The translations under genes and the position numbers were made by a program. A stretch of 42,144 nucleotides of DNA from a virus. Each line of letters opens with the position of its first letter. The stretch's first letter is position 1. The stretch is from positions 1 through 42,144 of IMG/VR virus record IMGVR_UViG_3300022693_002393. The stretch is one strand, 5' to 3'. Below the pieces are notes generated by a model, which saw only the letters and a program-made list of their open reading frames with translations, was not told the origin of the DNA and ran no database searches. Below, in pieces: positions 11,679-27,687 of this stretch.

Positions 11679-11684
11679 GTTGAT

Positions 11685-13533: not shown

Positions 13534-14132
13534 CTTGGAAAAAATCCCGTTTGATTACCCAGACCTTGATCAAAGGAAAACAAGGGTGCACGTTCTTGCG
13601 GTTTTTCATCCGAATATTCGCTAACCATAGTGATTAATTGCGTCCCTTGGTCGATGGCCGTGTTCATATTTTCTTTTGACTTATCTAAGTCCGCCAACTT
13701 TCCGTCAAGCAACAACTCAAAAAAGTTTTCGCCTTTGGCGGTGACGCGACCTTTTTGCTTTTTTAGTTTCTTGATCGTAAGGTCAATTTGAATTAAGTCG
13801 CGTTTAATTTTTGCAATATCCGCTTCGAGGTGTTGGATAACGCGATTGATGATATTGCCGTCAAAATCCCCACTATCCAGTATTCGTTTAAAAATGGCCA
13901 TAATTGCATTATTGGGGTCATTTTTTCGGGTATTTTCTTCGCCGGTTTGGTCATAATGCGCGCGTTTATCTGCGTTACTTAACACCTCGTAGGCGTGTTT
14001 GATTGTTTTAAATTGTTCTTCATCGCCATTGTCTTTATCCGGGTGAAGTTTAGCCGCTAATTTAAGGTAAGCGGTTTTTATTTCTTTCCGGGTGGCGGTC
14101 ACTGCGACGCCTAATGTGCTATAGAGAGACAT
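13530..14132 (-). CDS. DnaJ-domain (J-domain) protein
   Basis: Residues 1-65 form a J-domain: [21 protein letters not shown], then [17 protein letters not shown] with the invariant HPD loop, then [18 protein letters not shown]-domains stimulate the ATPase of Hsp70 (DnaK) and recruit clients to it. There is no Gly/Phe region or DnaJ zinc finger. The rest is a charged helical region ([20 protein letters not shown]) with no known domain. ATG 14132 was chosen over TTG 14147 because it begins right after the upstream gene stops and gives the normal J-domain start. The protein may redirect host DnaK to phage proteins. Confidence 0.88.
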
Positions 14133-14134
14133 TT

Positions 14135-14338
14135 TTAGTTTTTCCAAGTGCGAGTGGTAGCGTTGTATTGGTTTAATTCTTTTTTAAGAGCTATTAAAAG
14201 GTTATGTGACTGCCAAGTATCATCAAGGGTTCTCAAACGACCTTTAATCATTTTTACCATGTTCCGCGTGTTAATATCCGCAAACCTGATCGTTCTTCTA
14301 GCGTCGTTTACCGCATCGTTCATTTCATCAAAGTTCAT
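14135..14338 (-). CDS. Small hypothetical helical protein
   Basis: A 67-residue, basic, mainly helical protein ([35 protein letters not shown]) with no membrane segment. The ATG follows a good ribosome-binding site (AAGGAAAAATTAAC). It ends 2 bases before the DnaJ-domain start. Not recognised. Tight packing in the operon supports it as a real gene. Confidence 0.65.
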
Positions 14339-14339
14339 G

Positions 14340-14478
14340 TTAATTTTTCCTTAAGTTAGCGCACGCATAACAATAGCCGTCTTTATCAAGGTACGTTTTT
14401 CGATTGTGCGTTTTACCGCAAGGCCCCCTTGCATTGGGTGTTGAGGCGGTTATCTGATCGCGTGCGTAGATAAGTCAT
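14340..14478 (-). pseudogene. Small zinc-ribbon-like gene broken by one base in a G run
   Basis: From ATG 14478 (joined to the upstream stop as TAATG) the frame reads MTYLRTRSDNRLNTQCKG and then stops soon after the C5 run at 14424-14428 (G5 in the coding strand). Removing one G from that run joins the frame to a second one reading PCGKTHNRKTYLDKDGYCYACANLRKN and ending at 14340. The joined 45-residue protein has a C-x3-C ... C-x2-C arrangement typical of a small zinc ribbon. Nothing explains this second frame otherwise, since it has no start codon of its own. Either the run length is a sequencing error or the gene is truly frameshifted. Confidence 0.6.
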
Positions 14479-14657
14479 TACTTTTTCACACAAAGGGCCG
14501 ACGCTTTAAAAGTCGCATTCCCCATTTCTTTTTTATCGACGGCGAGCAGCCAGGCATTCGCCGCTTTATTGCAATGACCTTCTTTGAAAAAAGGCCCGAC
14601 CGATTCGATATGAACGCCGGCGCTACTAATGATGGTTAATATTAAAATCCAATGCAT
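14478..14657 (-). CDS. Small secreted-type protein with signal peptide-like N terminus
   Basis: A 59-residue protein too short for most gene callers. It begins MHWILILTIISSAGVHIES, a short hydrophobic stretch that looks like a signal peptide or membrane anchor. The remainder (VGPFFKEGHCNKAANAWLLA ... ALCVKK) has two cysteines that could pair in the periplasm. Its stop TAA overlaps the ATG of the next small gene, and the gene upstream ends 18 bases before its start. A role in the envelope, such as superinfection exclusion or lysis support, is possible but not shown. Confidence 0.6.
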   Translation of the reverse strand: MHWILILTIISSAGVHIESVGPFFKEGHCNKAANAWLLAVDKKEMGNATFKASALCVKK

Positions 14658-14675
14658 GTTATTTACCTATAGGGG

Positions 14676-15335
14676 TTAAGAAACGCCTTCATTAAAATCA
14701 ACGGCCATTTGTTTGGCATCTTCCATTGTTTTGGCTGTCCATTCTCCTCGGCCCCATTTTTCTGGAAATTCTGTAAATTGCTTTGATTCTGTTCCTCTTA
14801 AAGCCTCGTTTGGGACTTTATCGTTGTAAAGACTGTAAATCCACACACCTTTCATTTCATCGCCGTATGTTGTGCTGTTAGGCTTTTCAACCAACGCCAT
14901 GCCATCACTTGGTGATTCTACATATTCACAAAACTTATATCGGTGAGTGCCTTCTTCATACCATTCTCTTTCATGGTATTGTTCATCCCCCCAAAAAGCC
15001 ATAACACTCTCGATAAAATCATCCTTGTTACTAGCGTTATAATGACAACTTCCTTTTTCACAAGTCGATCCAACCTCAAACCCATAAATAGCTCTGTGAC
15101 TCCAACCAAACCACTTGTTTTCCTTTGGGCTGAATCCTACACCATGAGTTAATTCATCCGTTATTTCGCGATCTGCTAAGAATTCGACCGTATCCTCCAT
15201 GCCTACGTGAGTTATATAACTATCATCGAATTTACTAAAATAGCAATCATTTATAAAGTCTGGATCTCCACTGCCATTCGATTGATCAAGCTCTTTAACG
15301 TAAGCCACTTTGTTTAAATAGTCTTTTGTGTTCAT
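14676..15335 (-). CDS. Phage hypothetical protein, acidic
   Basis: The product from ATG 15335 is 219 residues, acidic, and rich in Trp and Tyr (GFSPKENKWFGWSHRAIYGF; EQYHEREWYEEGTHRYKF). The block around FGWSHRAIYGF looks like a conserved motif of phage hypothetical proteins, but I cannot name a family. ATG 15335 was chosen because GGAG lies 10 bases upstream; GTG 15344 is too close to it. No transmembrane segment is seen. Confidence 0.75.
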   Translation of the reverse strand: MNTKDYLNKVAYVKELDQSNGSGDPDFINDCYFSKFDDSYITHVGMEDTVEFLADREITDELTHGVGFSPKENKWFGWSHRAIYGFEVGSTCEKGSCHYNASNKDDFIESVMAFWGDEQYHEREWYEEGTHRYKFCEYVESPSDGMALVEKPNSTTYGDEMKGVWIYSLYNDKVPNEALRGTESKQFTEFPEKWGRGEWTAKTMEDAKQMAVDFNEGVS

Positions 15336-15358
15336 TGTTTTCACTCTCCAAATTAAAT

Positions 15359-15784
15359 TTATCTAACTTTAAAAACTCTCACTTTACCGCCCGTATAAAC
15401 GTCTCGCGTCATGGCATATTGCACCGCTTCTTTTGCTAACTTGCCGTGATCCATCGCGCCGGTGGCGAAACGGCCACCTGAGCCAAGCGTATAATTGTAA
15501 GTGAGTTTTGTATAGCAGCAATACCCACTATCTTCAACATGCACAAGATATACTTCACCATCTTTAATTAATAACGCAGAGCAATCAGGCACCGGTTTTA
15601 CGTGGTCATTATGTTTTAATTTTGCCAAGTCTGCTTCATCACAAGCAGAACCAGAAAAAAACCAAAGCCCTATCTCGTTTTTAAGCGTTTTATCCACGTT
15701 ATCGGTGAGTATTTCTGATCCCCCCGTCGTCCTGGAATCAATCGCAATCTGTTTATCTTTGTGGTGATATGCAACCGTGGTCAT
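15359..15784 (-). CDS. HslV/proteasome-like Ntn hydrolase
   Basis: The 141-residue protein starts MTTVAYHHKDKQIAIDSRTT, matching the beginning of HslV, in which Met removal exposes a catalytic Thr1. The expected partners are present: Asp at mature position 15 (IAID) and Lys at 31 (NVDKTLK), like D17 and K33 of HslV. The later GSGGRFATGAMDHG matches the HslV Gly-Ser-Gly-Gly active-site loop, and TRDVYTGGKVRVF matches its last strands. HslV is the peptidase of the HslUV ATP-dependent protease. No HslU-like ATPase is present here. It may form its own ring, work with host HslU, or poison the host enzyme. Confidence 0.8.
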   Translation of the reverse strand: MTTVAYHHKDKQIAIDSRTTGGSEILTDNVDKTLKNEIGLWFFSGSACDEADLAKLKHNDHVKPVPDCSALLIKDGEVYLVHVEDSGYCCYTKLTYNYTLGSGGRFATGAMDHGKLAKEAVQYAMTRDVYTGGKVRVFKVR

Positions 15785-15805
15785 AATTAACCTCTTTTCT
15801 TTTAG

Positions 15806-15979
15806 TTAAAATTTAGAAATCACACTGAATTTATTCAAAATAATCCAGCGTCCGTCGGCTAATTCAAGTACCTTCCGATCTTTATATATCCAAGTGGTGA
15901 TTTGTTGAGCCGTCACACCGAAAGCCTTAGCGCACCAAGCCCTAGATTTATAACGTTTTTCAAATTCTGATAGTTTCAT
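15806..15979 (-). CDS. Cro-sized helix-turn-helix DNA-binding protein
   Basis: This 57-residue basic protein reads MKLSEFEKRYKSRAWCAKAF with GVTAQQITTWIYKDRKVLEL following. The AWCAKAFGVTAQQITTWIYK segment has the pattern of a helix-turn-helix (helix, Gly-Val turn, recognition helix with QQITTW) like Cro-type or small phage regulators. Its ATG overlaps the stop of the preceding small gene, and GGGGAG precedes it. It is a good candidate for binding one of the dyad operators in this window (16641-16674 or 19996-20050), but that pairing is inferred. Confidence 0.65.
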   Translation of the reverse strand: MKLSEFEKRYKSRAWCAKAFGVTAQQITTWIYKDRKVLELADGRWIILNKFSVISKF

Positions 15980-16149
15980 CACTTCTCCCCAAACTCTTTT
16001 ATAAAATCATTTTTTAACTTTACCGATTCTTCTGCGCTTAAAGGTTGTGGGTCATCACCAATAAATAAATGACAAGGGAAAATGCTTTTTTGCGACATAT
16101 AAAGTATAAACATCGTTATCGTTACGCTTTCAGGTGTTGATTTGGCCAT
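15979..16149 (-). CDS. Small hypothetical protein
   Basis: A 56-residue protein (MAKSTPESVTITMFILYMSQ then an acidic C-terminal helix SAEESVKLKNDFIKEFGEK). The hydrophobic middle is too short to be a sure membrane segment. Its ATG overlaps the upstream stop as TAATG, and its own stop overlaps the HTH gene start, so three genes are coupled in a row. Not recognised. Confidence 0.6.
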   Translation of the reverse strand: MAKSTPESVTITMFILYMSQKSIFPCHLFIGDDPQPLSAEESVKLKNDFIKEFGEK

Positions 16150-16379
16150 TATTGTTTATTCCTTGGTCGGAACATGCCAAAATAATTATCTTTAATAGAC
16201 TCATTGAGTCCGTGAAGTGTATATTCACCTAAAGCCCGTTTATTCAAGTTAAAAAAGAAATAGAAATTGTATTGAAGAAAAAGCCCTATTAGTAACGGAA
16301 TGTATAGGACAACGACAACCGTAATATAAGAAGCGCCAGCAAAAAAACTTCTCCACCCTTTTGGTATTCTGCGTTTCAT
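16149..16379 (-). CDS. Small membrane protein
   Basis: The 76-residue protein has a basic N terminus (MKRRIPKGWRS) followed by a long hydrophobic stretch (GASYITVVVVLYIPLLIGLF) and aromatic residues, consistent with one membrane-spanning helix and a cytoplasmic N terminus. The C-terminal half is polar. A good ribosome-binding site (AGGGG) precedes the ATG by 8 bases. Function unknown; small early membrane proteins in phages often act in exclusion or host control. Confidence 0.65.
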   Translation of the reverse strand: MKRRIPKGWRSFFAGASYITVVVVLYIPLLIGLFLQYNFYFFFNLNKRALGEYTLHGLNESIKDNYFGMFRPRNKQ

Positions 16380-16418
16380 CTATCTATCCCCTTTGGTTAA
16401 GTTTTTAATAAATTTCGA

Positions 16419-16604
16419 TTAATAAAAGCTTTCAATTTCACGTTGTTCTCTAATTAAAGCGAACATTAAGCTATGGTCATCATTATCACTAGCTTTCTGA
16501 ATGAGATCTTTAACACGCTGTCTGTGACATACTCTATGACTTTTATTGTCGATACCTCTTGACTGCCAATGCCACACAGTTTTTTTACAGTCCCAACATT
16601 TCAT
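16419..16604 (-). CDS. Small zinc-finger-like protein
   Basis: A 61-residue protein starting MKCWDCKKTVWHWQSRG with a C-x2-C pair and a further Cys/His pair at VCHRQR, which could form a zinc-binding site. The C-terminal half is a charged helix. It is the first gene downstream of the strong promoter at 16637-16665, with AGGA 6-7 bases before the ATG and a leader of about 25 bases. Function unknown; a transcription-related role is possible. Confidence 0.65.
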   Translation of the reverse strand: MKCWDCKKTVWHWQSRGIDNKSHRVCHRQRVKDLIQKASDNDDHSLMFALIREQREIESFY

Positions 16605-16636
16605 ATTTTTTCCTTTTAATTTGTGTCAGTAGAGCT

Positions 16637-16665
16637 ATTATATACTCAATCGATTATATAGTCAA
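16637..16665 (-). promoter_or_regulatory. Strong sigma70-type promoter, leftward
   Basis: On the reverse strand, TTGACT (16665-16660) and TATAAT (16642-16637) are separated by exactly 17 bases. This is 5 of 6 and 6 of 6 matches to consensus in an AT-rich gap. It would drive the small genes from 16604 leftward independently of the main early promoter. Confidence 0.75.
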
Positions 16666-16674
16666 GCGAGTATA
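16641..16674. promoter_or_regulatory. Operator-like dyad spanning the leftward promoter
   Basis: TATACTC (16641-16647) and GAGTATA (16668-16674) are inverted copies with a 20-base gap. One copy overlaps the -10 box and the other lies just upstream of the -35 box, an arrangement suited to a repressor dimer or loop. The small HTH protein encoded downstream is a candidate ligand. Confidence 0.4.
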
Positions 16675-16690
16675 ATTAAATTAATTTTAG

Positions 16691-16885
16691 TTATTTTCCG
16701 CATTCAAAATTTTGTATCGTTGTTCGTATGAACCGTTTCAACGCGGTTTTGCAAAAGCCACCCATCCCCACTTCGCCGAACGACGTTTTTGTCATGAATT
16801 GGATCCGGGTGCATTTTCTGCCTGGTTCGTCACCACAATTGAAAATTTCATTGGTGATATGCTCGGCTAGTTGTTCAGTGTTCAT
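16691..16885 (-). CDS. Small hypothetical protein
   Basis: A 64-residue protein with three cysteines (IFNCGDEPGRKC, GGFCKTAL, NFECGK) and a basic C-terminal half (TALKRFIRTTIQ). A ribosome-binding site (AGGG) precedes the ATG. It ends at the promoter-bearing gap, so it belongs to the promoter-distal end of the upstream gene set. Not recognised. Confidence 0.6.
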   Translation of the reverse strand: MNTEQLAEHITNEIFNCGDEPGRKCTRIQFMTKTSFGEVGMGGFCKTALKRFIRTTIQNFECGK

Positions 16886-16888
16886 AAT

Positions 16889-17248
16889 TTACCCTTTCCA
16901 TTTTCCAATTCTTAGTTGTTTGTCGTCCGGCAGATTGACATTAAAAGTATGAAATAAACCGTCATCCATCACGGGCATAACAATCGGTACGCGTTTATAT
17001 TTCCGAACCTCAAAGGTTAGATCGACATTTAAAAGCACCGTCGCATCACCGGCGATAAACTTAATTAACCAATGTTTAAAATTAGTAAAAATACCACCAT
17101 TAGAATAATCTTGGCCGATAGGGATAAAAACCGGTTGCTTTTTTGTGTCTTCATTAATTCTAGTTATTGGTTGATATTTAAGCGTCCCAGGATTAAAAAC
17201 GGTTTTAAATCCTTTAAATTCTCGCGGTTCATCTTTTTTAGTGTTCAT
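16889..17248 (-). CDS. Hypothetical protein
   Basis: The 119-residue product is basic at the N terminus (MNTKKDEPREFKGFKTVFNP) and otherwise looks like a mixed beta protein with no membrane segment (VLLNVDLTFEVRKYKRVPIV). The start overlaps the stop of the preceding gene by four bases (ATGA-type). Not recognised. Tight packing within the operon supports expression. Confidence 0.65.
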   Translation of the reverse strand: MNTKKDEPREFKGFKTVFNPGTLKYQPITRINEDTKKQPVFIPIGQDYSNGGIFTNFKHWLIKFIAGDATVLLNVDLTFEVRKYKRVPIVMPVMDDGLFHTFNVNLPDDKQLRIGKWKG

Positions 17249-17460
17249 TTTTGTTGTTTCCTTATTAGTGCACGTTGATATAATTCACCATCGTCTGATG
17301 ACCCAGAATAAGATCCTATCCGTACCACTTCTGAAAAACGTAACCCTTCTAAATGCTCTCTCCGATTGACCGATATAAACAGTGTTCTATCGCCTGGGTG
17401 GACCCAATGTTTGACCCAATCATCAAATTGTCTTTGAGAATTATTAATGACCGCTATCAT
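17245..17460 (-). CDS. Hypothetical protein
   Basis: A 71-residue, basic, Arg/Gln-rich protein (NNSQRQFDDWVKHWVHPGDR; RREHLEGLRFSEVVRIG) without hydrophobic segments. It overlaps both neighbours by four bases, so it is translated as part of a coupled series with the HD phosphohydrolase. Not recognised. Confidence 0.6.
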   Translation of the reverse strand: MIAVINNSQRQFDDWVKHWVHPGDRTLFISVNRREHLEGLRFSEVVRIGSYSGSSDDGELYQRALIRKQQK

Positions 17461-18005
17461 TTTCCCACCCCCAACTCTTTACAACGATTTAAAAACAGGT
17501 CTTTGTGAGCGTGGGGGCCTGGCTTTCCATAATATCTTGCTAAATGACTATGAACATGGATCGGTTCGATGCCTTCCAATATCGGCCACGGCTTAGATTT
17601 TGCCAAGAACTGCTCCCTTTCATAACGTAGATGGGCCAAATCGTACCGTTTTAGAAGTTTGTTAGGGTGTAAATCAACCTTTAATCGTGCCGAAATGGCG
17701 CGATCAAGGCCTTGTTCTAAAACTTTAATAGGGCCGTCGATAATCCATTTAACCGGTGACATGATGTCGCCCATATAGGCCTCGTGTGCATCGTGGAGAA
17801 GCGCTTGTTTAGCCAGGTCGCCCCCGACGGCGCAAGAGACAATCACGCTGTGCAGAGCGACACTGCAATTGACATCGGTGTGACCGTTAAATCGTTGGAT
17901 CCGACTGAGCGCGTGGGCGATGTCGTCAAGGTTTACCATCTCAGGGGTGGGGTTTTCTAAGTCGAATTCAACGCCTGAGTGAGTTAATATCCAGTTATTG
18001 TTCAT
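17457..18005 (-). CDS. HD-domain phosphohydrolase (YfbR-like nucleotidase family)
   Basis: The 182-residue protein (ATG 18005, with AAGG upstream) follows the HD pattern: DIAHALSRIQRFNGHTD, SVALHSVIVS, then the catalytic LLHDAHEAYMGDI, and later a DLAHLRYE helix. This matches the phage and bacterial HD family that includes YfbR-type 5'-deoxynucleotidases, which remove phosphate from nucleoside monophosphates using a divalent metal. In an early phage operon it would help reshape the nucleotide pool. GTG 18011 is an alternative start two codons upstream. Confidence 0.8.
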   Translation of the reverse strand: MNNNWILTHSGVEFDLENPTPEMVNLDDIAHALSRIQRFNGHTDVNCSVALHSVIVSCAVGGDLAKQALLHDAHEAYMGDIMSPVKWIIDGPIKVLEQGLDRAISARLKVDLHPNKLLKRYDLAHLRYEREQFLAKSKPWPILEGIEPIHVHSHLARYYGKPGPHAHKDLFLNRCKELGVGK

Positions 18006-18019
18006 CTTCACACCTTTTT

Positions 18020-18373
18020 TTACGCAGCCTTCTTCAATTGCTCGCTGACTTTGTATGTTGATAAATACAAACGATTATTTTGCTTGCATCGGAAAATAGC
18101 CATATTGGTTTTACCTTTGCTAGGATATAAACGAGGATATTTTGCCAAATCGGCAACGATTGCCTTTCGCATGAATGAAAATGTTGATGGGTTGTTATTA
18201 GCGCAAGCTCTATAGCGCTTTGTTTTACCTCCAACAATCTCAACTAACGTTATAGTCAAATTAGCTTCAACCATATCAGCATGAAGATTCAACTTAGTGG
18301 GTCGATGTTTACGGATCGAAGGCTTTTGAACTCTTTGGTTCCGTTTGTTTGGCGTATATTTTTTTTCAGGCAT
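18020..18373 (-). CDS. Basic hypothetical protein
   Basis: The 117-residue protein is strongly basic, especially at the N terminus (EKKYTPNKRNQRVQKPSIRK), and could bind nucleic acid. The rest (VEANLTITLVEIVGGKTKRY; RLYPSKGKTNMAIFRCKQNN) looks like a small beta domain. It is preceded by GGAGA 7 bases before the ATG and lies just downstream of the tRNA gene. Not recognised. Confidence 0.65.
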   Translation of the reverse strand: MPEKKYTPNKRNQRVQKPSIRKHRPTKLNLHADMVEANLTITLVEIVGGKTKRYRACANNNPSTFSFMRKAIVADLAKYPRLYPSKGKTNMAIFRCKQNNRLYLSTYKVSEQLKKAA

Positions 18374-18410
18374 TTTATTTTCTCCAATATTTTCCTGTTG
18401 TTAAATAATA

Positions 18411-18488
18411 TGGTCAGGATGGTAGGATTCGAACCTACGACCTCTCGGTTCCAAACCGAGAACTCTGTCCAGACTGAGCTACACCCTG
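18411..18488 (-). tRNA. tRNA-Pro (anticodon UGG) with encoded CCA
   Basis: The reverse strand folds as a full cloverleaf. The acceptor stem is CAGGGTG/CATCCTG, the D arm contains AGCTCAG, the anticodon stem is CTCGG/CCGAG around TTTGGAA (anticodon TGG), the variable loop is short, and the T arm is GTAGGTTCGAATCCTAC. Discriminator A is followed by encoded CCA. It reads CCA and, by wobble, other proline codons. It is the only tRNA seen and lies inside the leftward early operon. Confidence 0.95.
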
Positions 18489-18501
18489 TTTTTAAATAAA
18501 T

Positions 18502-18596
18502 GTTTATATCGGCAAATATTGCTTGCTATCCGAATATAGCTGATCGTCTTTCCAACTTCGGTAAGGCGACTAATCACAATATTTCCCGATATAAAC
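18502..18596 (-). ncRNA. Candidate structured RNA, domain B (adjacent to tRNA)
   Basis: Bases 18502-18521 and 18577-18596 are inverted copies over 20 positions with one mismatch, giving a long closing helix. Inside are two hairpins: GCTAT/ATAGC (18525-18529 with 18536-18540, 6-base loop) and a 9-position stem (18545-18553 with 18560-18568, 6-base loop). Together they make a three-way junction. No open reading frame explains it. Transcription through the leftward operon would produce it 13 bases before the tRNA. I do not recognise a known RNA family. Confidence 0.55.
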
Positions 18597-18604
18597 ACTT
18601 TAAA

Positions 18605-18723
18605 CCTGCTTAATTATCGGCTCTAAACTTTTCTGATGCTGTGACTTAACAACAGCCCTTTTTTCTCTGTGGGGGCCAACCACTATTTGAGTCTAACAAA
18701 CATCGAGCCGATATCTAAACAGG
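18605..18723 (-). ncRNA. Candidate structured RNA, domain A
   Basis: Bases 18605-18623 pair with 18705-18723 over 19 positions. On the leftward transcript 16 are Watson-Crick, two are G-U and one is a mismatch; on the other strand the two G-U pairs become mismatches, which favours the leftward RNA. Smaller inner helices are possible (GCTGT 18638-18642 with ACAGC 18652-18656; GTGG 18669-18672 with CCAC 18680-18683). The closing helix shares the TATCGG motif with domain B, suggesting a tandem pair. Family unknown. Confidence 0.5.
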
Positions 18724-18738
18724 CTTTTCTATCGTCCC

Positions 18739-19188
18739 CTATTTAATTAGCTCAGGGTTTTGATGTATATTTCCGATTACTTCAAACTTTTCCGGGTCTT
18801 CTAAATCCTCACCTTCGTAACCAAATGATTCATTTTTAAGCCAATAAACAGGAAACCGTTCCATCGTTACTACATCAGTAACTTCGTCTATAAGTGGAAT
18901 TTTTGCGTGCAGTGCATCGTCGGCACCGTGCGAAAAATTTTCGTTACTCATCCACTCTTGATACTCATCTGAATAATTATTCATTCCTTTTTTAACAACA
19001 ATATCATCCTCGAACAAATATTTACCGTTTTTATCCTTTCTCCCGATACACCGCAAAAATTGAATATCGTTGCCGCCATCAATGCGTTTTTGAACTTCAA
19101 TAAAAAATAAAAATAAATAATCAAAGTTGTTGGAGTGAATTAAATCTTCATTAAATTTATCCCAAGCTCTGAATTTAAGTTCTTTCAT
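18739..19188 (-). CDS. YopX family protein
   Basis: The 149-residue protein has the YopX layout: start MKELKFRAWDKFNEDLIHS, middle FLRCIGRKDKNGKYLFEDDI with the conserved D-K-N-G-K and E-x-D-I-V segment, and end FEVIGNIHQNPELIK. YopX proteins are common in phages and prophages, form beta-rich multimers, and have no proven biochemical function. The gene directly precedes the structured-RNA region and tRNA in the direction of transcription. Confidence 0.88.
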   Translation of the reverse strand: MKELKFRAWDKFNEDLIHSNNFDYLFLFFIEVQKRIDGGNDIQFLRCIGRKDKNGKYLFEDDIVVKKGMNNYSDEYQEWMSNENFSHGADDALHAKIPLIDEVTDVVTMERFPVYWLKNESFGYEGEDLEDPEKFEVIGNIHQNPELIK

Positions 19189-19199
19189 AATTTTAGCCT

Positions 19200-19472
19200 T
19201 TATAATCCATTTAAAAATTGAATCAATTCTAATTTACTATTAATGCAGTCCGCTTTGAAACCGAGCGCCTTTAGTTTCCCAAGCCACACCCATTGAAGCG
19301 GCGTGGCTCTGCCGAACTTTGTTTTCAACTCCACAAACCCCACTCGTGCCCCAGGCAATACAATCAATCGGTCCGGGATGCCTTTGATAAAGCCCAATTT
19401 AAAACAATAACCGCCGCGGCGCTTGACTTCTTTGATGAGCCATTTTTCAAGGCTGACTTCTAAACTAGGCAT
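19200..19472 (-). CDS. VRR-NUC domain nuclease
   Basis: The 90-residue protein is a minimal VRR-NUC domain. It has EVSLEKWLIKEVKRRGG (conserved Glu and helix), then GFIKGIPDRLIVLPG with the catalytic Asp in G-x-PDR, then GFVELKTKFGRATPLQWVWL with the E-x-K motif and the downstream Gln. These PD-(D/E)XK-fold nucleases act on branched or flapped DNA; stand-alone phage forms are thought to resolve Holliday-type junctions. It fits a role in phage recombination or replication-fork processing together with the helicase of the same operon. Confidence 0.88.
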   Translation of the reverse strand: MPSLEVSLEKWLIKEVKRRGGYCFKLGFIKGIPDRLIVLPGARVGFVELKTKFGRATPLQWVWLGKLKALGFKADCINSKLELIQFLNGL

Positions 19473-19475
19473 TCG

Positions 19476-19721
19476 TTATGATCCTAATTTTTCTGTAAAT
19501 GAGCAACTTTCCATAGTGACCTTTTGCCCAAATACTTGTTTGAATGAATCAGACATATCCTTTCTATAGACGTCGAATTCAGGTTTATTTCGCTCATATA
19601 CATTCATTTCAAAGTCTTCACCCTTAATTTCAAAATGAAAGGTTAAACTACAAAATAAAAAATCAACGTTACTAATTCTGTCGTCCAGATAGATATGAAC
19701 TATTCCATTACGAATATGCAT
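19476..19721 (-). CDS. Hypothetical protein
   Basis: The 81-residue protein has a beta-like N-terminal half (HIRNGIVHIYLDDRISNVDF) and an acidic, polar C-terminal half. No known motif is visible. It lies one base after the upstream gene stop and 3 bases before the nuclease gene, in line with operon packing. Not recognised. Confidence 0.6.
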   Translation of the reverse strand: MHIRNGIVHIYLDDRISNVDFLFCSLTFHFEIKGEDFEMNVYERNKPEFDVYRKDMSDSFKQVFGQKVTMESCSFTEKLGS

Positions 19722-19722
19722 T

Positions 19723-19980
19723 CTATGCCCCGCTCCACTGATGACGCCACGCTTCTTTACGGTGGTTTAAATCCCGACGTTCCTTATCCGCGCGCAGTCG
19801 GGTGTATCGCCGGTGCAATTGCATCAACACGCTTTTACGGTTTTGGCCGCATAGCTCCATATCAATGAGTTTATCCAATTGGTCAATCGTCAGGTTAGAG
19901 ACTTCTTTATGGGACACCACCCGACCGTCGTTGCCTTTGGCGTAGAAATCAATTAAAAATTTCGGTAAGTTTTTTATCAT
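19723..19980 (-). CDS. First gene of the leftward early operon, basic helical protein
   Basis: From ATG 19980 the product has 85 residues (MIKNLPKFLIDFYAKGNDGR start). The C-terminal half is very basic and helical (KSVLMQLHRRYTRLRADKER), suggesting nucleic-acid binding. The frame is open to ATG 20049, but the predicted leftward transcript starts near 20014, so the first usable ATG is 19980, which has GGAAA upstream. Two other upstream ATGs lie inside the promoter. As the first early product it may be a regulator. Not recognised. Confidence 0.65.
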   Translation of the reverse strand: MIKNLPKFLIDFYAKGNDGRVVSHKEVSNLTIDQLDKLIDMELCGQNRKSVLMQLHRRYTRLRADKERRDLNHRKEAWRHQWSGA

Positions 19981-19996
19981 AAGAGTTAATTTCCGC

Positions 19997-20025
19997 TTGC
20001 GTTTTTTAAAATCTACGGTCATAAT
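19997..20025 (+). promoter_or_regulatory. Rightward early promoter (half of a symmetric pair)
   Basis: TTGCGT (19997-20002), a 17-base spacer and CATAAT (20020-20025) form a sigma70-like promoter with its -10 box shared with the leftward promoter. The start is expected near 20032. It would drive the replication operon beginning at 20065. Confidence 0.65.
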
Positions 20026-20049
20026 ACTTGCACATTTTAAAAAATGCAA
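20021..20049 (-). promoter_or_regulatory. Leftward early promoter (half of a symmetric pair)
   Basis: On the reverse strand TTGCAT (20049-20044), a 17-base spacer and TATTAT (20026-20021) form a sigma70-like promoter overlapping the rightward one face to face. The start is expected near 20014. It would drive the leftward operon from 19980. Confidence 0.65.
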
Positions 20050-20064
20050 GAGAAACTTAATAAA

Positions 20065-20307
20065 ATGTCTGATGTGATGAAACTATTAACAAGGTATATC
20101 GAAGCTAAAGGCTATGATATAAAAACAATAATTGGCGCAGATAGGGAATGTGCTTGCGGCGTCCGTTATATTGATGGTAAAAAACTACCGAAAAATCAAT
20201 TTAAAACAGTCGAAAGAACCTGTATGAGATGTTTCGGGAGTGGGACGATTGCCGGAGAAATCGATTACAAAGTAACTAAGAAATTTAAATTTAACGGAGA
20301 ACCTTAA
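20065..20307 (+). CDS. Small zinc-binding protein, DnaJ-type cysteine motif
   Basis: The product contains two cysteine groups, ECACGVRYIDGK and RTCMRCFGSGTIAG. The second has the C-x2-C-x-G-x-G form of DnaJ zinc-finger repeats, so a zinc ribbon is likely. The start was taken as ATG 20065 (80 residues), with AAGAG upstream and a leader of about 33 bases. ATG 20044 would lie inside the promoter repeat with no ribosome-binding site and a leader of about 12 bases. It is the first gene of the rightward replication operon. Function unknown. Confidence 0.65.
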   Translation: MSDVMKLLTRYIEAKGYDIKTIIGADRECACGVRYIDGKKLPKNQFKTVERTCMRCFGSGTIAGEIDYKVTKKFKFNGEP

Positions 20308-20310
20308 AAA

Positions 20311-21615
20311 ATGACTAAACATTCAACCGTCTGCGGCGGAAGCAGCGCAAACCGATATATTCACTGCATTGGTAGCAATCATTTAATCAAAAAAATGCCT
20401 AAACAGGAAGCCAGCGAGGCCGCTTGGACCGGCACCATGCTGCATGAAGTGATTGAAGAAACCTTGCTCGACGCGATTGATTTTGACCCGCACGGCTTCA
20501 TCGGCGACGACATTGAAATTGATGATATTGATCCTGAAACCAATCAAAAACGCAAAATTGAAGTGACTGAACAACACATCGTCACCAAAATACTGCCGGT
20601 TTTAAAGTGGTTTGATGAAGTGCTTGCCCCGGCTGATTTCTGGCTAGAAGAAAATGTTGAATTTGATGGCGAGCTTGCAGGCGCTTTCGGCACCGCGGAC
20701 GTGCTTTTTCATGACGGCGACAAAGCCGGCATTGTGGATTGGAAGTTTGGTGACGGGGTACTCGTCAACGCTAAAGATAACATGCAACTCAAATTTTACC
20801 TGGCTGCGGCCATCAAACAAGAGTGGTTTGCTAAAAAGACTCGGGATCCCGATGTCGACGATTATTTCCAAGAATTTCACGCTTATATCGTTCAACCGAT
20901 TGAAGGCGCTAAGGATATGGTCAGTCATACCATATTCACTCGCCAGGAATTACTGGATTTTGAGCAAGAATTGCTCGAGGCCAAACAACTAAAAGATAAT
21001 GGTATTGTGACCACCACCTGCGGGTCATGGTGCCAATGGTGCCCCGCCAAGCCGATCTGTACCGGTTGGCGTAATCGTGGCCAAGAAGCCATTGCCCCGC
21101 TGGTGAAAGGACACGTTTCACGTGAAACCTTGAAATCAGGCAAAGATAAAAAACCGACGAAGCCGTCCACCACCAAAGCGGTGTGTGATGAGTTGGACCA
21201 TGACGAGCTGAAGGCGATTTTTTTAGAAGCCTGTGAAATGGCCTCTTGGATTGACGCGGTTAAAAAATACGTCAAAAACGAATTTGAGCAAGGCCGGCCG
21301 ATTGATGGTTTGAAAAAAGTTGTTCAACAAATGCAAAAACAGTGGATGGATGAAACCAAAGCTGAGCGGTGGTGCCGCGGTCAAGGTTATACCGTGGATG
21401 ACTTTAAATCCCCCCGCATGTTATTGTCGGTGGCCAAAATTGAAAAGCTGGTCGGTAAAGGGAAAATTAAAGAAGCCCTGATCCGGAAAAGCGCTAAAGC
21501 GTTCTCAATTGTCGAAGTGAGTGATCCTCGTCCGGCAGTTGATAGCAATACTGATGACGATGAGTCAGCAAGCAGTTTGTTGGCGGCGTCATTGGGTAAA
21601 AACACGTCACTTTAA
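20311..21615 (+). CDS. RecB/Cas4-type PD-(D/E)XK nuclease (DUF2800-like)
   Basis: The 434-residue protein begins with STVCGGSSANRYIHCIGS. It has the nuclease core WTGTMLHEVIEE (conserved His), then GAFGTADVLFHDGDKAGIVDWKFGDG with the catalytic D...D-x-K pattern. A C-terminal cysteine cluster follows (TCGSWCQWCPAKPICTG). Together with an N-terminal Cys, three of these could hold an iron-sulfur cluster as in Cas4 and AddB. The match is to the phage DUF2800 group, usually found in replication/recombination operons. It probably resects DNA ends for recombination, together with the protein encoded next. Confidence 0.85.
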   Translation: MTKHSTVCGGSSANRYIHCIGSNHLIKKMPKQEASEAAWTGTMLHEVIEETLLDAIDFDPHGFIGDDIEIDDIDPETNQKRKIEVTEQHIVTKILPVLKWFDEVLAPADFWLEENVEFDGELAGAFGTADVLFHDGDKAGIVDWKFGDGVLVNAKDNMQLKFYLAAAIKQEWFAKKTRDPDVDDYFQEFHAYIVQPIEGAKDMVSHTIFTRQELLDFEQELLEAKQLKDNGIVTTTCGSWCQWCPAKPICTGWRNRGQEAIAPLVKGHVSRETLKSGKDKKPTKPSTTKAVCDELDHDELKAIFLEACEMASWIDAVKKYVKNEFEQGRPIDGLKKVVQQMQKQWMDETKAERWCRGQGYTVDDFKSPRMLLSVAKIEKLVGKGKIKEALIRKSAKAFSIVEVSDPRPAVDSNTDDDESASSLLAASLGKNTSL

Positions 21616-21644
21616 ACATTAAACATTAAACTTAATAGGAAAAT

Positions 21645-22385
21645 ATGAATATGTCACAATCTAAAGAAATACAAAGCGCCTTCGGCGGCGCGGATAACAT
21701 GCCGGCTAATTTCAACCCTCAAGCCTTAATGAAGTCCACCGCGGCACTACCCAAAACATCCAATAAGCCGTTTCTCTCGTTTCGAGATGGTGAGTGGACG
21801 TTTGGCGCCGACCATGCGGAAGTGGAAGAAGGATCCCTTTGGGCGGTTAATCCGAACAGCTTTATGTTTGGGTTGATTGAATGGTGCGATAGCAAAGCGG
21901 GGGCCGAATTAATGGTGCCCGCCGGAACCAAGTACAGCGCGGAGGACTTAAATTTGCAGTTCGACCCGGATGACGAGGACCATCGGATCGCGCCGCAAGT
22001 CTCCATTGATTTGTACTGTGTAACGGGTGATGACGAAGGGTTGGAAGTCAATTTCAAAACTTCGACTCGAGGCGGCACGGATGTGATCAATGACTTGGCC
22101 ATTAAAATTGCCAAACAAGCCGCATCCAATCCCGATCAACCCGTCGCCATTATCTCGCTCGAAGAGTCAAGCTACCGACACAAAAAATACGGTAAGAAAT
22201 ATGTGCCTATTTTTAAGTTGGAAGATTTTGACGATTATGAGTTCTCCGCCACTCGGGCTTCCTCGGATGGTAAGAAAACGAAGTCTAATCCGAAGAAACT
22301 TGCAAAAGCGGAAACGCCGGAAAAAGACGACGCGGTGGAAGAAGACCACAAGCCCGCTTCTCGCCGTCGTCGATCTCGTAAGTGA
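21645..22385 (+). CDS. Acidic phage replication-block protein, possible ssDNA-binding partner
   Basis: The 246-residue product (ATG after AGGAAAAT) has a globular beta-rich part (KPFLSFRDGEWTFGADHAEV; RIAPQVSIDLYCVTGDDEGL) and a charged tail of about 45 residues. That tail alternates Lys/Glu/Asp and ends in basic RRRRSRK. Genes next to DUF2800-type nucleases often encode ssDNA-binding proteins, and the size and tail would fit, but I cannot confirm an OB fold by eye. A strong terminator follows the gene. Confidence 0.6.
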   Translation: MNMSQSKEIQSAFGGADNMPANFNPQALMKSTAALPKTSNKPFLSFRDGEWTFGADHAEVEEGSLWAVNPNSFMFGLIEWCDSKAGAELMVPAGTKYSAEDLNLQFDPDDEDHRIAPQVSIDLYCVTGDDEGLEVNFKTSTRGGTDVINDLAIKIAKQAASNPDQPVAIISLEESSYRHKKYGKKYVPIFKLEDFDDYEFSATRASSDGKKTKSNPKKLAKAETPEKDDAVEEDHKPASRRRRSRK

Positions 22386-22411
22386 TTGACGCGGTTTAAC
22401 TAGTAGAACCT

Positions 22412-22451
22412 AAAAGCCGCCTTTATCATTTTTGGTAATGGCGGCTTTTTT
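22412..22451 (+). terminator. Rho-independent terminator
   Basis: AAAAGCCGCC (22412-22421) pairs perfectly with GGCGGCTTTT (22440-22449). The stem can extend inward (TTATC with GGTAA), and a run of T follows on the plus strand. The A run before it makes it possibly bidirectional. It would separate the nuclease/acidic-protein unit from the polymerase genes, or attenuate them. Confidence 0.85.
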
Positions 22452-22470
22452 ATCGACGGAGAATAGGAAA

Positions 22471-22641
22471 ATGAAAAACGGGAGAGAAGTCAGACCTAAC
22501 GGAAGTATCATTACTAAAGTACTAATGAAAAGCGGGATTTATTTGTATTACGTTCAAAATATAAATTATAAACCTTCTAAAAATGGCCCTTGGGACTACC
22601 TAAGAAATGCTAGAAAAGATGCCGATAACTGTAAACTATAG
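22471..22641 (+). CDS. Small hypothetical protein
   Basis: A 56-residue basic protein (MKNGREVRPNGSIITKVLMK and later WDYLRNARKDADNCKL) starting at an ATG with AGGAAA just upstream. It follows the terminator by 19 bases, so it needs read-through or an unseen promoter. No membrane segment. Not recognised; small single-domain proteins of this kind are common before phage polymerase genes. Confidence 0.6.
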   Translation: MKNGREVRPNGSIITKVLMKSGIYLYYVQNINYKPSKNGPWDYLRNARKDADNCKL

Positions 22642-22653
22642 GACTAAAAACTC

Positions 22654-24744
22654 ATGACTCGCGAAATTATCAGCCTCGATTTTGAAACCCGGAGCGCCTG
22701 TAATCTCATCAGAGAAGGCGCGTATCGATACGCCACTTGCCCCACGACTCAAGTGATTTGTTGCAGCTATAAAATAAAAACCGGTGAAATACGAACGTGG
22801 ATCCCGCCATGGGTGGAAAAAATCGTCGGCGTGGGTGACCAAGCCCCTTGGGAATATAACCCGGATGCGATGTATCAAGCCTGGAACAGCCAGTTTGACC
22901 GCCTGATTTGGCAGTATGTCTGCACCAATGATTATAATTGGCCCGATTCCTTTATCACCGATTGGATCTGTACCAGCGCATTAGGCCGAACCAATGGCCT
23001 ACCAGGCAAGCTCGAGAATGCCGCGATTGCCTTAAAACTCAGTCAGAAAAAAGACCATCGCGGATCGCAATTAATCAAATTATTGTCTATTCCCAACGGT
23101 GGCACGCGTTATGCGCCGACGTTTTGTGAGGATGAAACCCTACTGAATGAAATGTGCGATTATTGCGAGCAAGACGTGAGGGTCGAATCCGGCATTGTGG
23201 AAACGATGCGGCCGTTTCTCCCTCATGAGCTCATCGAATTTCATGCCAGCGAAAAAATTAACGACCGCGGCATTGGTTTTGATTTGCCTTTTGCCAAAAA
23301 AGCCATTACTTACGGCGATGTGGAGAAAGCGTTGCTCGAGGAAGAACTTCAAATTATCACTAAAAATGAAGTGGAAAAAACGACCCAATACCAACGGGTG
23401 AAAAAATGGTTGCTTGCCGGATATACCGAAGAGGAAGATGAGAAAGGCACTTTTTACGTGCCAACCGGAGAAACGCGCATTTCACCGGAAGCGGTGAAAA
23501 TGATGACCTTTTACAAAAAAGGTCAACGCAAAATTTCCCTCGATAAAGCGGTGAGAAACAATCTTTTACTCTCCATTGATACCGAGCCCGATCTCTTAAC
23601 CAGCGACGCGCTCGAGGTCATCAAACTCACGGACCTGGCCAATAAATCCAGCGTCGCCAAATACAAACGCATGGTCGAGCGTGAAATTGATAGCCGAATT
23701 TGCGGCGCGTATATGTTCGCCGGCGCCGCGGGTACCGGCCGATTCTCTGCCCATGGCATTCAACCGCATAACATGGTCAGAGATTGCGTCAAAGATTTTG
23801 ACGAGTCACTCAAAAATCTTGATAGCCAAACCGACACCGAAGTCATTCACACACTGTCAAAAATGATGCGCCCCACGATTAAAAGTGAAAAAGGCAAGCG
23901 GCTTTATTGGTCTGATTGGTCGAATGTAGAAGGGCGAGCCCTTCCCTGGTTGGCCGATACCGACGCCGCGGATCGAAAGCTCGATATGTTTCGCCGCCAA
24001 GATGCCCACCCTGAGGAGCCCGACGTTTACGAGCGAATGGCGGAGCGAATGGGCCTAGAAGAGAGACAAACCGGTAAAGTCGCCGAGCTGGCGATGGGTT
24101 TTGGCGGTGGCGTCGGGGCGTTCCAAGCCATGGCGAGAAATTACGGGGTGCGCGTGTCTGACAAGGAAGCCAAGAAAATCCAGAATCTTTGGCGTGAGGC
24201 CAACCCTTGGGCCAAACCGTTTTGGTACAAATTAAAGAATGCCGCATGGGACGCGATGACGAACCCCGATGAGTTTTTCCGAGTGGGCCGAGTCGCTTAC
24301 TTTTATACCGAACATACCCATAATGGGCTCGGCACGCTTTGGTGCCAACTGCCCTCAAAACGACTGATTGCCTATGTGAATCCCAAGTTTGAACATGTGC
24401 CTTGTCCGTGGAATGAAGACGAAACCATGCTCGAGCTGACCGCTATCAAAGCGAACTTTAAACCCAAGCAAGGCGAGCCTGAGTGGCCCCGACATAAATT
24501 GTGGTACGGGGTATTGGCGGAGAACATCACTCAAGCGTTTTGTGCGGACTTACTTCGTCACGCGTTGGTGCAGTTTGAAGAAGCGTGTCTTGAAGTTGTT
24601 CTCCACACTCATGATGAAGTGGTGGTTAAAGACGACGTTAATGTGTCAAAAATAGTCAAAAGAATTATGGAAATACCCCCAAAATGGGCCGAGGGGTTCC
24701 CCCTCGCCGCGGATATTAACTCTGGACTGAGGTATACAAAATAA
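22654..24744 (+). CDS. Family A DNA polymerase with 3'-5' exonuclease
   Basis: The 696-residue protein has an N-terminal DnaQ-like exonuclease: Exo I DFET (D9, E11), an Exo II region near YQAWNSQFDRLIW and Exo III in YCEQDVRVE. The C-terminal polymerase follows: motif A SDWSNVEGR (catalytic D421), motif B RQTGKVAELAMGFGGGVGAF (K475) and motif C LHTHDEVV (H653-D654-E655). It lacks the 5'-3' exonuclease of PolI. It is the replicative polymerase of the phage, working with the primase-polymerase encoded downstream. Its stop overlaps the next ATG (TAATG). Confidence 0.95.
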   Translation: MTREIISLDFETRSACNLIREGAYRYATCPTTQVICCSYKIKTGEIRTWIPPWVEKIVGVGDQAPWEYNPDAMYQAWNSQFDRLIWQYVCTNDYNWPDSFITDWICTSALGRTNGLPGKLENAAIALKLSQKKDHRGSQLIKLLSIPNGGTRYAPTFCEDETLLNEMCDYCEQDVRVESGIVETMRPFLPHELIEFHASEKINDRGIGFDLPFAKKAITYGDVEKALLEEELQIITKNEVEKTTQYQRVKKWLLAGYTEEEDEKGTFYVPTGETRISPEAVKMMTFYKKGQRKISLDKAVRNNLLLSIDTEPDLLTSDALEVIKLTDLANKSSVAKYKRMVEREIDSRICGAYMFAGAAGTGRFSAHGIQPHNMVRDCVKDFDESLKNLDSQTDTEVIHTLSKMMRPTIKSEKGKRLYWSDWSNVEGRALPWLADTDAADRKLDMFRRQDAHPEEPDVYERMAERMGLEERQTGKVAELAMGFGGGVGAFQAMARNYGVRVSDKEAKKIQNLWREANPWAKPFWYKLKNAAWDAMTNPDEFFRVGRVAYFYTEHTHNGLGTLWCQLPSKRLIAYVNPKFEHVPCPWNEDETMLELTAIKANFKPKQGEPEWPRHKLWYGVLAENITQAFCADLLRHALVQFEEACLEVVLHTHDEVVVKDDVNVSKIVKRIMEIPPKWAEGFPLAADINSGLRYTK

Positions 24745-24986: not shown

Positions 24987-27260
24987 ATGAAAACAAAAAG
25001 AGAATACGCCACGCATTTAATCAACAAAGGATTATGGATATTCCCTCTGCCAAAAGGACAAACCACCCCGGACCTGCCGTTTAGTGAAGTGTCGAGCAGT
25101 GACATTAAACAAATTAATAAATGGTGGCGGACGTCTAAATCACCGAGAAACATTGGGGTACACACCGGAGGAGGGTTGATTGTATTCGATGTAGACGTTC
25201 ATCATAGTGGAGATAAAAGTTTAGACCAATTAGTCAAAGACAATGAAATATTACCTGAAACCTTTACGGTCAGCACGCCGTCCGGGGGGACCCATTACTA
25301 TTTTACCAGTTCTGAAGATATACGCAACAGTGCCGGAAAACTCGGCGAGGGTCTGGATATCCGAGGCCATAATGGTTACGTGGTGGCGCCCGGTAGCCAC
25401 CGAGACGCGAGGAAAACCAAAAAAGGGGGCACTTACGACATCGTTGACGATAAAGATTTTGCGCCAATGCCTGAGTGGCTCGAAAAATTGTGCCTTGAAG
25501 ATAGCGCGCCGAAAACGATAAACCTGAAGGATTTTGGCGCCATTAAGGATAATGACGATCCCCTCGAAGATGTCCCCGCCGGTCAGCGCAATAATGTCTT
25601 GTTCAAAGAGGCGAGCGGTTTACGGGGTAAAGGTTGGAAACAAGGGGCCATTGAAGCGGCTATCATCGCGCGTAATGCGACATTCTCTGACCCGCTACCG
25701 TTAAACGAAATTGATTTAATTGTCAGCCAGGCGTCAAAATATGAGCCTAATACCCCCAGTTTTTACGACAGCCACATTATCGAGGCCAAGGAAAGCCTTA
25801 ATGATGACGATCACCGCAAACGGGCCAAAGAAGCGATTAAAAGCGCCACCTTTTTAATCAAAGAAACAATCAACTTTAAGTTAGAATGTGATTTAGACAT
25901 CGCGCATTTGATTATTAGCTCCTCTTTTTGGCAACCCAAAGAGGCTAGATTGCATACCATCAACCAACAAAGTCTTAAGGTGCTGTTCAGTGAACGAGAC
26001 GCCATTAAGATGTTGGTGGAGTTATTCGGCAATCCGATCGTTAACTTTGACGCGCTTTGCAGCGCCACCTGTGACGAGGATTTAAGCCTCACCGTGGTGC
26101 AAAAGCGCGAAGCGCGGCACGTTCTTATTACCAAACTGTTCGATGTGATTAAAATCAATAATCAGCGCCTGGCGCTCAAACTCAATGTCGATATGTTCAC
26201 CAAAAGAACCTATTTTGAATTTGACCCCGGCCACGCCATTGAGAACCACAAACATTTTAAACTCAAACCGACTTGCCAACCGCTCTATGACGAGGCGGCC
26301 GTTATTGATTATAAGGAGCATTTCCCGCAACTCGATAACGTCTTAAAACTCATCATTGCGGCGCGGTTTGCCGGCTCTCGGAAAAAAGCCTATCTTTGGC
26401 TCAAAGCGCCCAGTGATTGGGGCAAGGATTTTTTTCGGGTGGCGCTCGGCACCATTGCGGTAGAGATGAGCGTTAAAGAGGTGGAAAAAGCGCTAGAAGG
26501 CGCGCCGGTCGGTAAGTCTCCTAATGATTTCCACCGCACCATGGTGATGGTGACCAATGAATTTAAAAGCGTTAAAAGTGAGCTAAAGCAGCTTGAGGAC
26601 TCGATTGTCTTGTCCGCTAAATATCAGCTTGAGACGAAGATACCGCTTTACACCAAGCTGTTTTTATCCGCGGAGGGGGTGGATTCCTTGATTGGCGAGT
26701 ATGGGATTGAAAGCCAGTTTGCGAATCGCTTTTCTTTGATTGATTGTCAAGGGGATTTAACCGAGCTGATTAGTTTTAAAAGGCTCGGCTCTCGATTCCT
26801 GGATGTGATCAAGACCTATTGCACGGATTTTATGAACCGAGAGATTGCCCGTTACCGGGCGATGGGCTTCTATGACAGCCGTGAGGCAGGCGACAAGGCG
26901 GTAGTGTCCTTTCACACCCGCTACGGCATTAAGAAGGTCAACGCCACGATTGAGGACAGCCTGGAAGAACTGGCCCAGTTAATTAAAGAAGAGATCTTAA
27001 GCGACCACACGTTGAACCTCATTCGAGAGGATAAATACCGTCATTTGCAGTGTGCCAAAACGATTATCAGCAACATCTTATTCAGCAATAAAATCGTCGG
27101 ACGGTCGGAAGCGTACACGTTAAAGTATAAAATTGATGAGCTTTGCAAGCTGATATCGGTGGATGGAAAGGGCATTGCCTCGCATCGGATTGGTGAAAAC
27201 GTGAAGAAAACATTGAAATTAATGTCTGATCGACCCAAACTTGAAGTGGTGAAAGAGTGA
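24987..27260 (+). CDS. Primase-polymerase with degenerate helicase-like C terminus
   Basis: Residues about 1-180 form a bifunctional primase/polymerase domain: GLWIFPLPKGQ, the metal-binding D-x-D in IVFDVDVH (D68, D70), STPSGGTHYYF (H103) and LGEGLDIRGHNGYVVAPGS. A PriCT-type domain follows (GQRNNVLFKEASGLRGKGWK, near residues 195-255). The C-terminal part resembles SF3/D5-type phage helicases: LKAPSDWGKDFF in the Walker A position (K480), MVMVTNEFKS as a Walker B-like strand and ESQFANRF as an arginine-finger-like segment. The residue after the Walker lysine is Asp instead of Ser/Thr, so ATP hydrolysis is uncertain. It lies next to the proposed origin. Confidence 0.88.
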   Translation: MKTKREYATHLINKGLWIFPLPKGQTTPDLPFSEVSSSDIKQINKWWRTSKSPRNIGVHTGGGLIVFDVDVHHSGDKSLDQLVKDNEILPETFTVSTPSGGTHYYFTSSEDIRNSAGKLGEGLDIRGHNGYVVAPGSHRDARKTKKGGTYDIVDDKDFAPMPEWLEKLCLEDSAPKTINLKDFGAIKDNDDPLEDVPAGQRNNVLFKEASGLRGKGWKQGAIEAAIIARNATFSDPLPLNEIDLIVSQASKYEPNTPSFYDSHIIEAKESLNDDDHRKRAKEAIKSATFLIKETINFKLECDLDIAHLIISSSFWQPKEARLHTINQQSLKVLFSERDAIKMLVELFGNPIVNFDALCSATCDEDLSLTVVQKREARHVLITKLFDVIKINNQRLALKLNVDMFTKRTYFEFDPGHAIENHKHFKLKPTCQPLYDEAAVIDYKEHFPQLDNVLKLIIAARFAGSRKKAYLWLKAPSDWGKDFFRVALGTIAVEMSVKEVEKALEGAPVGKSPNDFHRTMVMVTNEFKSVKSELKQLEDSIVLSAKYQLETKIPLYTKLFLSAEGVDSLIGEYGIESQFANRFSLIDCQGDLTELISFKRLGSRFLDVIKTYCTDFMNREIARYRAMGFYDSREAGDKAVVSFHTRYGIKKVNATIEDSLEELAQLIKEEILSDHTLNLIREDKYRHLQCAKTIISNILFSNKIVGRSEAYTLKYKIDELCKLISVDGKGIASHRIGENVKKTLKLMSDRPKLEVVKE

Positions 27261-27263
27261 AAT

Positions 27264-27655: not shown

Positions 27656-27658
27656 AGC

Positions 27659-27687
27659 TTGACAATGGGGTTAAAGTGTGGTTTAAA
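27659..27687 (+). promoter_or_regulatory. Sigma70-like promoter after the origin
   Basis: A perfect TTGACA (27659-27664), a 17-base spacer and TTTAAA (27682-27687, 4 of 6 matches) directly follow the last GGTTAC iteron. It would transcribe the small genes from 27810 rightward and probably the genes beyond. Overlap with the iteron cluster would allow the iteron-binding protein to regulate it. Confidence 0.5.

Follow-up and report, generated by a model that had tools for sequence, protein, structure and literature searches.

A candidate bidirectional promoter with a shared -10 element and mirrored leaders at a gene-block divergence in a phage with P22-like virion genes

Divergent promoters and the gene layout of the window

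Bidirectional promoters with a shared -10 element are reportedly the subject of an earlier genome-wide paper, cited by Warman, Grainger and colleagues. In two reports on bacteria (PMC12825309, PMC10268837), such promoters are defined by the shared -10 together with reciprocal -7T/-11A and +1A/-18T; the divergent starts mostly lie 18 bp apart, with distances of 10 and 23 bp also frequent, and opposing polymerases are unable to bind simultaneously. The basal activities tested are given there as too low for polymerase competition, which was seen once one direction was activated (PMC12825309, PMC10268837). Promoters that share a -10 are said to be widespread among bacteria, and how they are regulated has received little study (PMC12825309). 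Judging the literature by titles, which is not proof of absence, we found no description of a phage promoter of this kind placed between operons. Another natural comparison is PR/PRM of lambda or P22, the lysis-lysogeny switch of temperate phages.

The window analyzed here is a stretch of 42,144 nucleotides (positions 1-42,144 of virus record IMGVR_UViG_3300022693_002393). Its virion genes are P22-like, with portal, scaffold, head and Sf6-type small terminase genes (PHROGs, Pfam). The portal is closest to those of Vibrio and Pseudomonas phages (48-49% identity), which makes gammaproteobacterial promoter rules a fair guess. According to the ORF list, genes lie on the plus strand from 205 to 10975, on the minus strand from 11250 to 19980 and again on the plus strand from 20065 to 42137, and the sign of the GC skew tracks these blocks, switching near 11 kb and again near 20 kb. 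The sole divergence of gene blocks in the window is therefore at about 20 kb, between the left block (11250-19980) and the right block (from 20065). The genes nearest to it are as follows.

19200..19472, minus strand: VRR-NUC-like nuclease of the left block (weak Pfam match below the cut-off; homologues found by tblastn)
19723..19980, minus strand: first left-hand ORF, better-supported start (longer forms from 20022 or 20049)
20065..20307, plus strand: first right-hand ORF, better-supported start; small, Cys-rich and without a family match (the ORF list begins it at ATG 20044)
20311..21615, plus strand: DUF2800 / Cas4-like nuclease, second right-hand gene (Pfam/PHROGs)

The right block thus runs from the small Cys-rich ORF through the DUF2800/Cas4-like nuclease to polymerase A and primase. 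The near part of the left block holds two small ORFs, the VRR-NUC-like nuclease, a YopX-like gene and tRNA-Pro, followed past the tRNA by nucleotide phosphatase-like, HslV-like, Thoeris-inhibitor-like (Tad6), DnaJ-domain and SNF2-type helicase genes. The earlier note had called the site the single switch between two early operons. What is borne out is a symmetric shared -10, with both -35s in mirrored arms, at the only block divergence, and the word "early" is a reasonable guess, since replication genes open the right block and nuclease, YopX-like and counter-defence genes lie in the left.

Several other features of the window were observed along the way. Tad6, an inhibitor of type I Thoeris defence, is a strong Pfam match (14676-15344, minus strand, E 9.8e-38), and the same strand carries the DnaJ-domain protein (13530-14147) and a relative of HslV-like peptidases (15359-15784). 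Between the YopX-like gene and tRNA-Pro, about 245 nt of the minus strand (18490-18735) contain two long predicted hairpins (-43.6 and -43.5 kcal/mol, z -6.2 and -4.6) with no Rfam match, no phage match and no copy in the relatives' loci compared; the region is possibly a new structured RNA or a mobile repeat. Past the primase gene, direct and inverted repeats cluster at 27260-27800 (TGTAACCTTGTAACC, CGGCAGGATTTTGACAAAA and variants) and look like the iterons of a replication origin.

The locus is like lambda or P22 PR/PRM in that close divergent promoters occur in a phage with P22-like virion genes. It differs in that no repressor or integrase, nor any HTH protein, is named in the 30 ORFs scanned with Pfam and the 30 scanned with PHROGs, several of which are matchless, and in that the promoters feed replication and takeover-type genes.

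A predicted shared -10 element at the centre of an inverted repeat

The 7-bp sequence CATAATA between the two blocks can be read as a -10 element in both directions, and it lies at the exact centre of an inverted repeat:

19986..20012, no strand: 27-nt left repeat arm, containing the -35 of the rightward promoter and the larger part of the 5' leader predicted for the leftward transcript
20034..20060, no strand: 27-nt right repeat arm, containing the -35 of the leftward promoter and the larger part of the 5' leader predicted for the rightward transcript
20020..20026, no strand: shared -10 element CATAATA, 7 bp; its centre, 20023, is the centre of the repeat
19997..20002, plus strand: rightward -35 TTGCGT, 17-nt spacer, whole-promoter score 7.07
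20020-20025, plus strand: rightward -10 CATAAT
20032, plus strand: predicted rightward transcription start, an A, with T at its -18
20044..20049, minus strand: leftward -35 TTGCAT, 17-nt spacer, whole-promoter score 8.38
20026-20021, minus strand: leftward -10 TATTAT
20014, minus strand: predicted leftward transcription start, an A on the minus strand, with T at its -18
20027..20050, no strand: second palindrome, imperfect, 24 bp, 10 of 12 pairs

The hexamers, the 17-nt spacers and the common CATAATA lie where the earlier note had placed them, symmetric about 20023, and its two starts about 18 bases apart fall at 20032 and 20014 when each +1 is predicted 7 nt past its -10. The window site therefore has the published start distance of 18 bp. 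It also has the reciprocal -7T/-11A (20021 is A and 20025 is T) and +1A/-18T in both directions (20014 is T and 20032 is A). With its near-symmetric -10, its 18-bp start distance and its position between divergent genes, it resembles the bacterial shared -10 promoters of Warman, Grainger and colleagues. The difference is that the symmetry in the window spans both -35 elements and both 5' leaders. What had been described as a 17-bp repeat does contain both -35s in inner 17-nt arms with 16 of 17 positions identical, but the arms extend to 27 nt at 85% identity, with a gap of 21 nt. Read outward from the centre, both sides give ATTTTAAAAAA(T/C)GCAAG(A/C)G(A/G)AA(A/C)TTAA. Within the repeat, CTTGCNNNTTTTAAAA occurs in three exact copies (19996-20011, plus; 20027, plus; 20050, minus), all inside 55 bp, and a search of the whole window allowing up to one mismatch found no match beyond these three.

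The promoters themselves are weak. Each matches 8 of 12 positions of a sigma70-type consensus that may not be the host's, the -35s being poor past TTG, and a promoter scan with a cut-off of at least 9/12 detected neither direction. The leftward promoter, at 8.38, is the top leftward site within 19960-20085. The top rightward score, 8.84 versus 7.07 for the promoter using the shared -10, belongs to TTAAAA-18-TAAAAT at 20061, the start of which would land within the ORF.

The better-supported start codons at 19980 (minus) and 20065 (plus) both lie 42-43 nt from the repeat centre and have some Shine-Dalgarno pairing (-3.5 and -2.9 kcal/mol, respectively); the promoter-overlapping starts at 20022 (minus) and 20044 (plus) have almost none (-0.2 and 0 kcal/mol). 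With transcription starting at 20014 and 20032, each arm would serve as a 5' leader nearly equal to the other, and each leader would carry the -35 of the opposite direction. The 75-nt span has a strong predicted fold as RNA (z -4.4), but no single predicted transcript holds both arms because the predicted starts fall between them, and on that ground an mRNA hairpin was ruled out as the main role of the repeat. Single leaders fold no better than shuffled sequences (182/200 and 160/200 shuffles were at least as stable), and Rfam matches at the promoter region were at chance level.

Comparisons with shuffled sequences show which parts of the element are in statistical excess. The hexamers by themselves are weak and common: 3 shared -10 pairs in the window equal or exceed this one in both scores, compared with 2.5 expected (the 3 include the pair itself), and when the 126-bp region was shuffled 2000 times, 1.6% of the shuffles reached the strength of the pair. 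The repeat score of 15, in contrast, was reached in none of 1000 dinucleotide shuffles of 300 local bases and in none of 100 shuffles of the whole window (best shuffle, 13); two higher-scoring repeats exist elsewhere in the window, with centres near 27311 and 18549. When the arms were kept fixed and the loop alone was shuffled, 10 of 20,000 shuffles placed a shared -10 of equal quality precisely at the centre. The window contains 40 shared -10s matching at least 5/6, six of which have +1A/-18T on both strands and one of which also has TTG at both -35s. That one is the promoter described here, the sole site in 42 kb with the strict signature of starts 18 bp apart, reciprocal -7T/-11A, +1A/-18T both ways and TTG -35s; 2 of 200 shuffles contained any such site. 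These tests were designed post hoc, with the site already seen, and the +1A/-18T rule was taken from print (PMC10268837).

Predicted overlapping promoters in relatives of the replication module

At the nucleotide level, phage DNA gave no match for 18700-22700 and only short chance-level matches for 19940-20110, and the inverted repeat used as a DNA pattern had no match in IMG/VR. Single-protein scans of IMG/VR found nothing with the first left ORF, the DNA polymerase or the primase, and one locus (26%) with DUF2800; a polymerase alignment gave 80 loci, all at 36-40%. One locus of record G001, L133, has a portal at 82%. It was rejected for aligning the promoter site because that record is a mosaic, lacking both the DUF2800 and the polymerase genes. 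Across long stretches the virion genes of the window share about 73-77% DNA identity with G001 (L133, L164), and this match, with DUF2800 and polymerase missing from G001, reads in sequence comparison as module exchange between P22-like phages. The homology with L133 begins only at position 161; positions 1-160 have no other match in the loci compared and are possibly a chimeric or foreign end of the window.

Distant relatives were collected in two sets, which are related and not fully independent. Homologues of DUF2800 were fetched with their flanks from 80 loci, plus 46 host-genome loci that were used just for L087-L089 (L087 and L088 entered the counts). Among the 83 loci L007-L089, 60 had a readable divergent gap, with coordinates taken by hand, and these together with L003 form the first set. 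The second, polymerase-based set started from 80 loci (L167-L246); tblastn detected DUF2800 together with VRR-NUC in 59 of them, in 54 cases within 700 bases, and dropping four of these as contigs already in the first set left 50. Relatives commonly have the helicase/VRR-NUC block on the left side and DUF2800 on the right side, in divergent orientation, and VRR-NUC and DUF2800 are divergent in all 59 second-set loci where both were detected.

The shared -10 geometry of the window is not kept in these relatives. At offset +1, shared -10 pairs were found in 5 of 42 first-set clusters compared with 3.3 expected (threshold 5), in 2 compared with 1.2 (threshold 6) and in 1 compared with 0.33 (threshold 7); in the second set there were 0/19 at threshold 7, so the pairs show no excess over chance. 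No strict shared -10 site was found in the 159 other loci (1.77 Mb, with a mean GC higher than that of the window). A shared -35 is the frequent arrangement: at thresholds 5, 6 and 7 the first set had 18/42 clusters against 5.3 expected, 11 against 1.7 and 6 against 0.58, and the second set 13/19 against 3.1, 11 against 1.1 and 10 against 0.37. A smaller group has abutting -35s (TTGACAGGTCAA), with 11/42 against 3.0 in the first set and 4/19 against 1.7, inside the shuffle range, in the second.

The motif TTGACAA is present in 52 of 112 regions, with a few matches, as in L003, falling in coding sequence. In the 36 TTGACAA regions whose leftward -10 scores at least 3, the only ones counted and many of them near-copies, that -10 is always followed 6-7 nt on by an ATG, which coincides with +1 or adjoins it; the leftward mRNA of these relatives is therefore predicted to be leaderless, and the fit supports their leftward promoters. 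Loci of this kind, with the ATG in the gap between VRR-NUC and DUF2800, include L016, L067, L168, L188 and L220. Relatives such as L016, L067 and L188 are like the window in that the site occupies the same gap between VRR-NUC/helicase and DUF2800/polymerase genes, and in that a polymerase bound at one of the two overlapping promoters should keep a second off the other. They differ in that the overlap is at the -35 and the 7-nt rule puts their starts about 64 bp apart, whereas the window combines a shared -10 with a predicted leader in each direction. No TTGACA occurs in 19960-20085, which places the window outside the shared -35 class.

Another arrangement is the palindrome TAGCACA-N11-TGTGCTA, with variants, in 13 of 112 regions (L032, L033, L036, L040, L049, L051, L061, L063, L167, L213, L215, L218 and L227), where it could be an operator or, as the sequence can also be read, interleaved promoters; the leftward hexamers are often weak (scores 2.8-7.8). 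As in the window, L032, L213 and L218 have at the divergence a palindrome with promoter-like hexamers in both arms, but the sequence is different and each arm joins a -35 to the -10 of the other direction. Neither this palindrome nor its G/C/A variants occur in the window, which has the different 24-bp near-palindrome. An inverted repeat as a general feature of the family was considered and rejected, as the repeats of just 2 of 61 regions (L051 and L061), the window aside, beat all 100 shuffles.

The proposal to check conservation in relatives thus has a split outcome. No close relative was found, and the distant ones keep the divergence and an overlapping promoter pair, mostly with a shared -35 or with another palindrome, while the shared -10 is not conserved. 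In 34 loci of relatives, tblastn places homologues of the window's first left ORF on the far side of the helicase, which indicates that the genes beside the promoter were rearranged in the lineage of the window. Such rearrangement may have been the route by which the promoter was replaced.

Alternative readings and a possible mode of action

We consider the element, placed where two phage gene blocks diverge, to be probably, though by no means certainly, a bidirectional promoter of the sigma70 type whose two directions share one -10. The earlier note had added that one binding protein could control both directions, and a related alternative takes the three CTTGCNNNTTTTAAAA copies, with the promoter between them, as half-sites of a regulator from phage or host that would span the two -35s and switch the blocks together. 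Their clustering in 55 bp of an otherwise copy-free window, the 24-bp near-palindrome that two of them make up, and the similar-sized palindrome between divergent genes in 13 of 112 relatives' regions are consistent with an operator. However, the arms are already accounted for by the -35s and the leaders, so that the repeat needs no protein, and the scanned ORFs, several of them matchless, include no named DNA-binding regulator; we regard an operator as unlikely. It is likewise doubtful that the leftward promoter alone works as described and that rightward transcription starts from another site. One candidate for such a start is the high-scoring site at 20061 and the other an interleaved TTGCAC-18-GAAACT (TTGCAC at 20028, GAAACT at 20052), which ends 7 nt upstream of ATG 20065 and would start next to it, giving a leaderless mRNA of the sort predicted at the divergence in all 36 scored shared -35 regions. 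The GAAACT site scores 4.4 compared with 7.07 for the shared -10, and a separate rightward start leaves unexplained why a two-way -10 with +1A/-18T on both strands lies at the loop centre.

Each predicted start has a repeat arm downstream of it, so the leaders have most of ATTTTAAAAAA(T/C)GCAAG in common, and a single RNA-binding factor or RNase could act on both. We hold this to be very improbable, as neither leader alone folds better than its shuffles and a shared ribosome-site context also yields similar leaders, as in L061 and L049 with their mirrored AAAGGA-type leaders. A chance repeat, or one serving another purpose such as replication or packaging, would fit the abundance of chance shared -10 pairs in the window, but it is quite improbable given a repeat score above every shuffle, the position at the only divergence and the presence of the strict signature.

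Under the bidirectional promoter reading, we infer that the promoter is active, early and read by the host RNA polymerase, which would bind in either orientation and never in both simultaneously. In one orientation TTGCGT/CATAAT would be used, with a rightward start near 20032, and in the other TTGCAT/TATTAT, with a leftward start near 20014. By analogy with the published bidirectional promoters, the polymerases would thus exclude each other at the window promoter. The mirrored arms would give both directions a near-equal -35, spacing, 5' leader and weak ribosome site, so that the two blocks should stay near balance. The weak -35s make polymerase competition doubtful without an activator, as it depends on promoter strength.

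The feature is real and a good candidate for a promoter kind that is already known; what is new are the mirrored leaders and the change of register across the family. These results lead us to speculate, quite tentatively, that the divergence point of this replication-module family always carries an overlapping, mutually exclusive promoter pair, whose register has changed between -35/-35, -35/-10 and, in the window, -10/-10. Selection would then keep the exclusion and not the sequence, and the pair would split the takeover genes from the replication genes without the help of a regulatory protein. A phage that apparently drives both opposite gene blocks from one shared -10 with mirrored leaders is a compact natural test case for whether polymerase competition alone can balance two operons, and the family offers several overlap registers at the same locus for side-by-side comparison.
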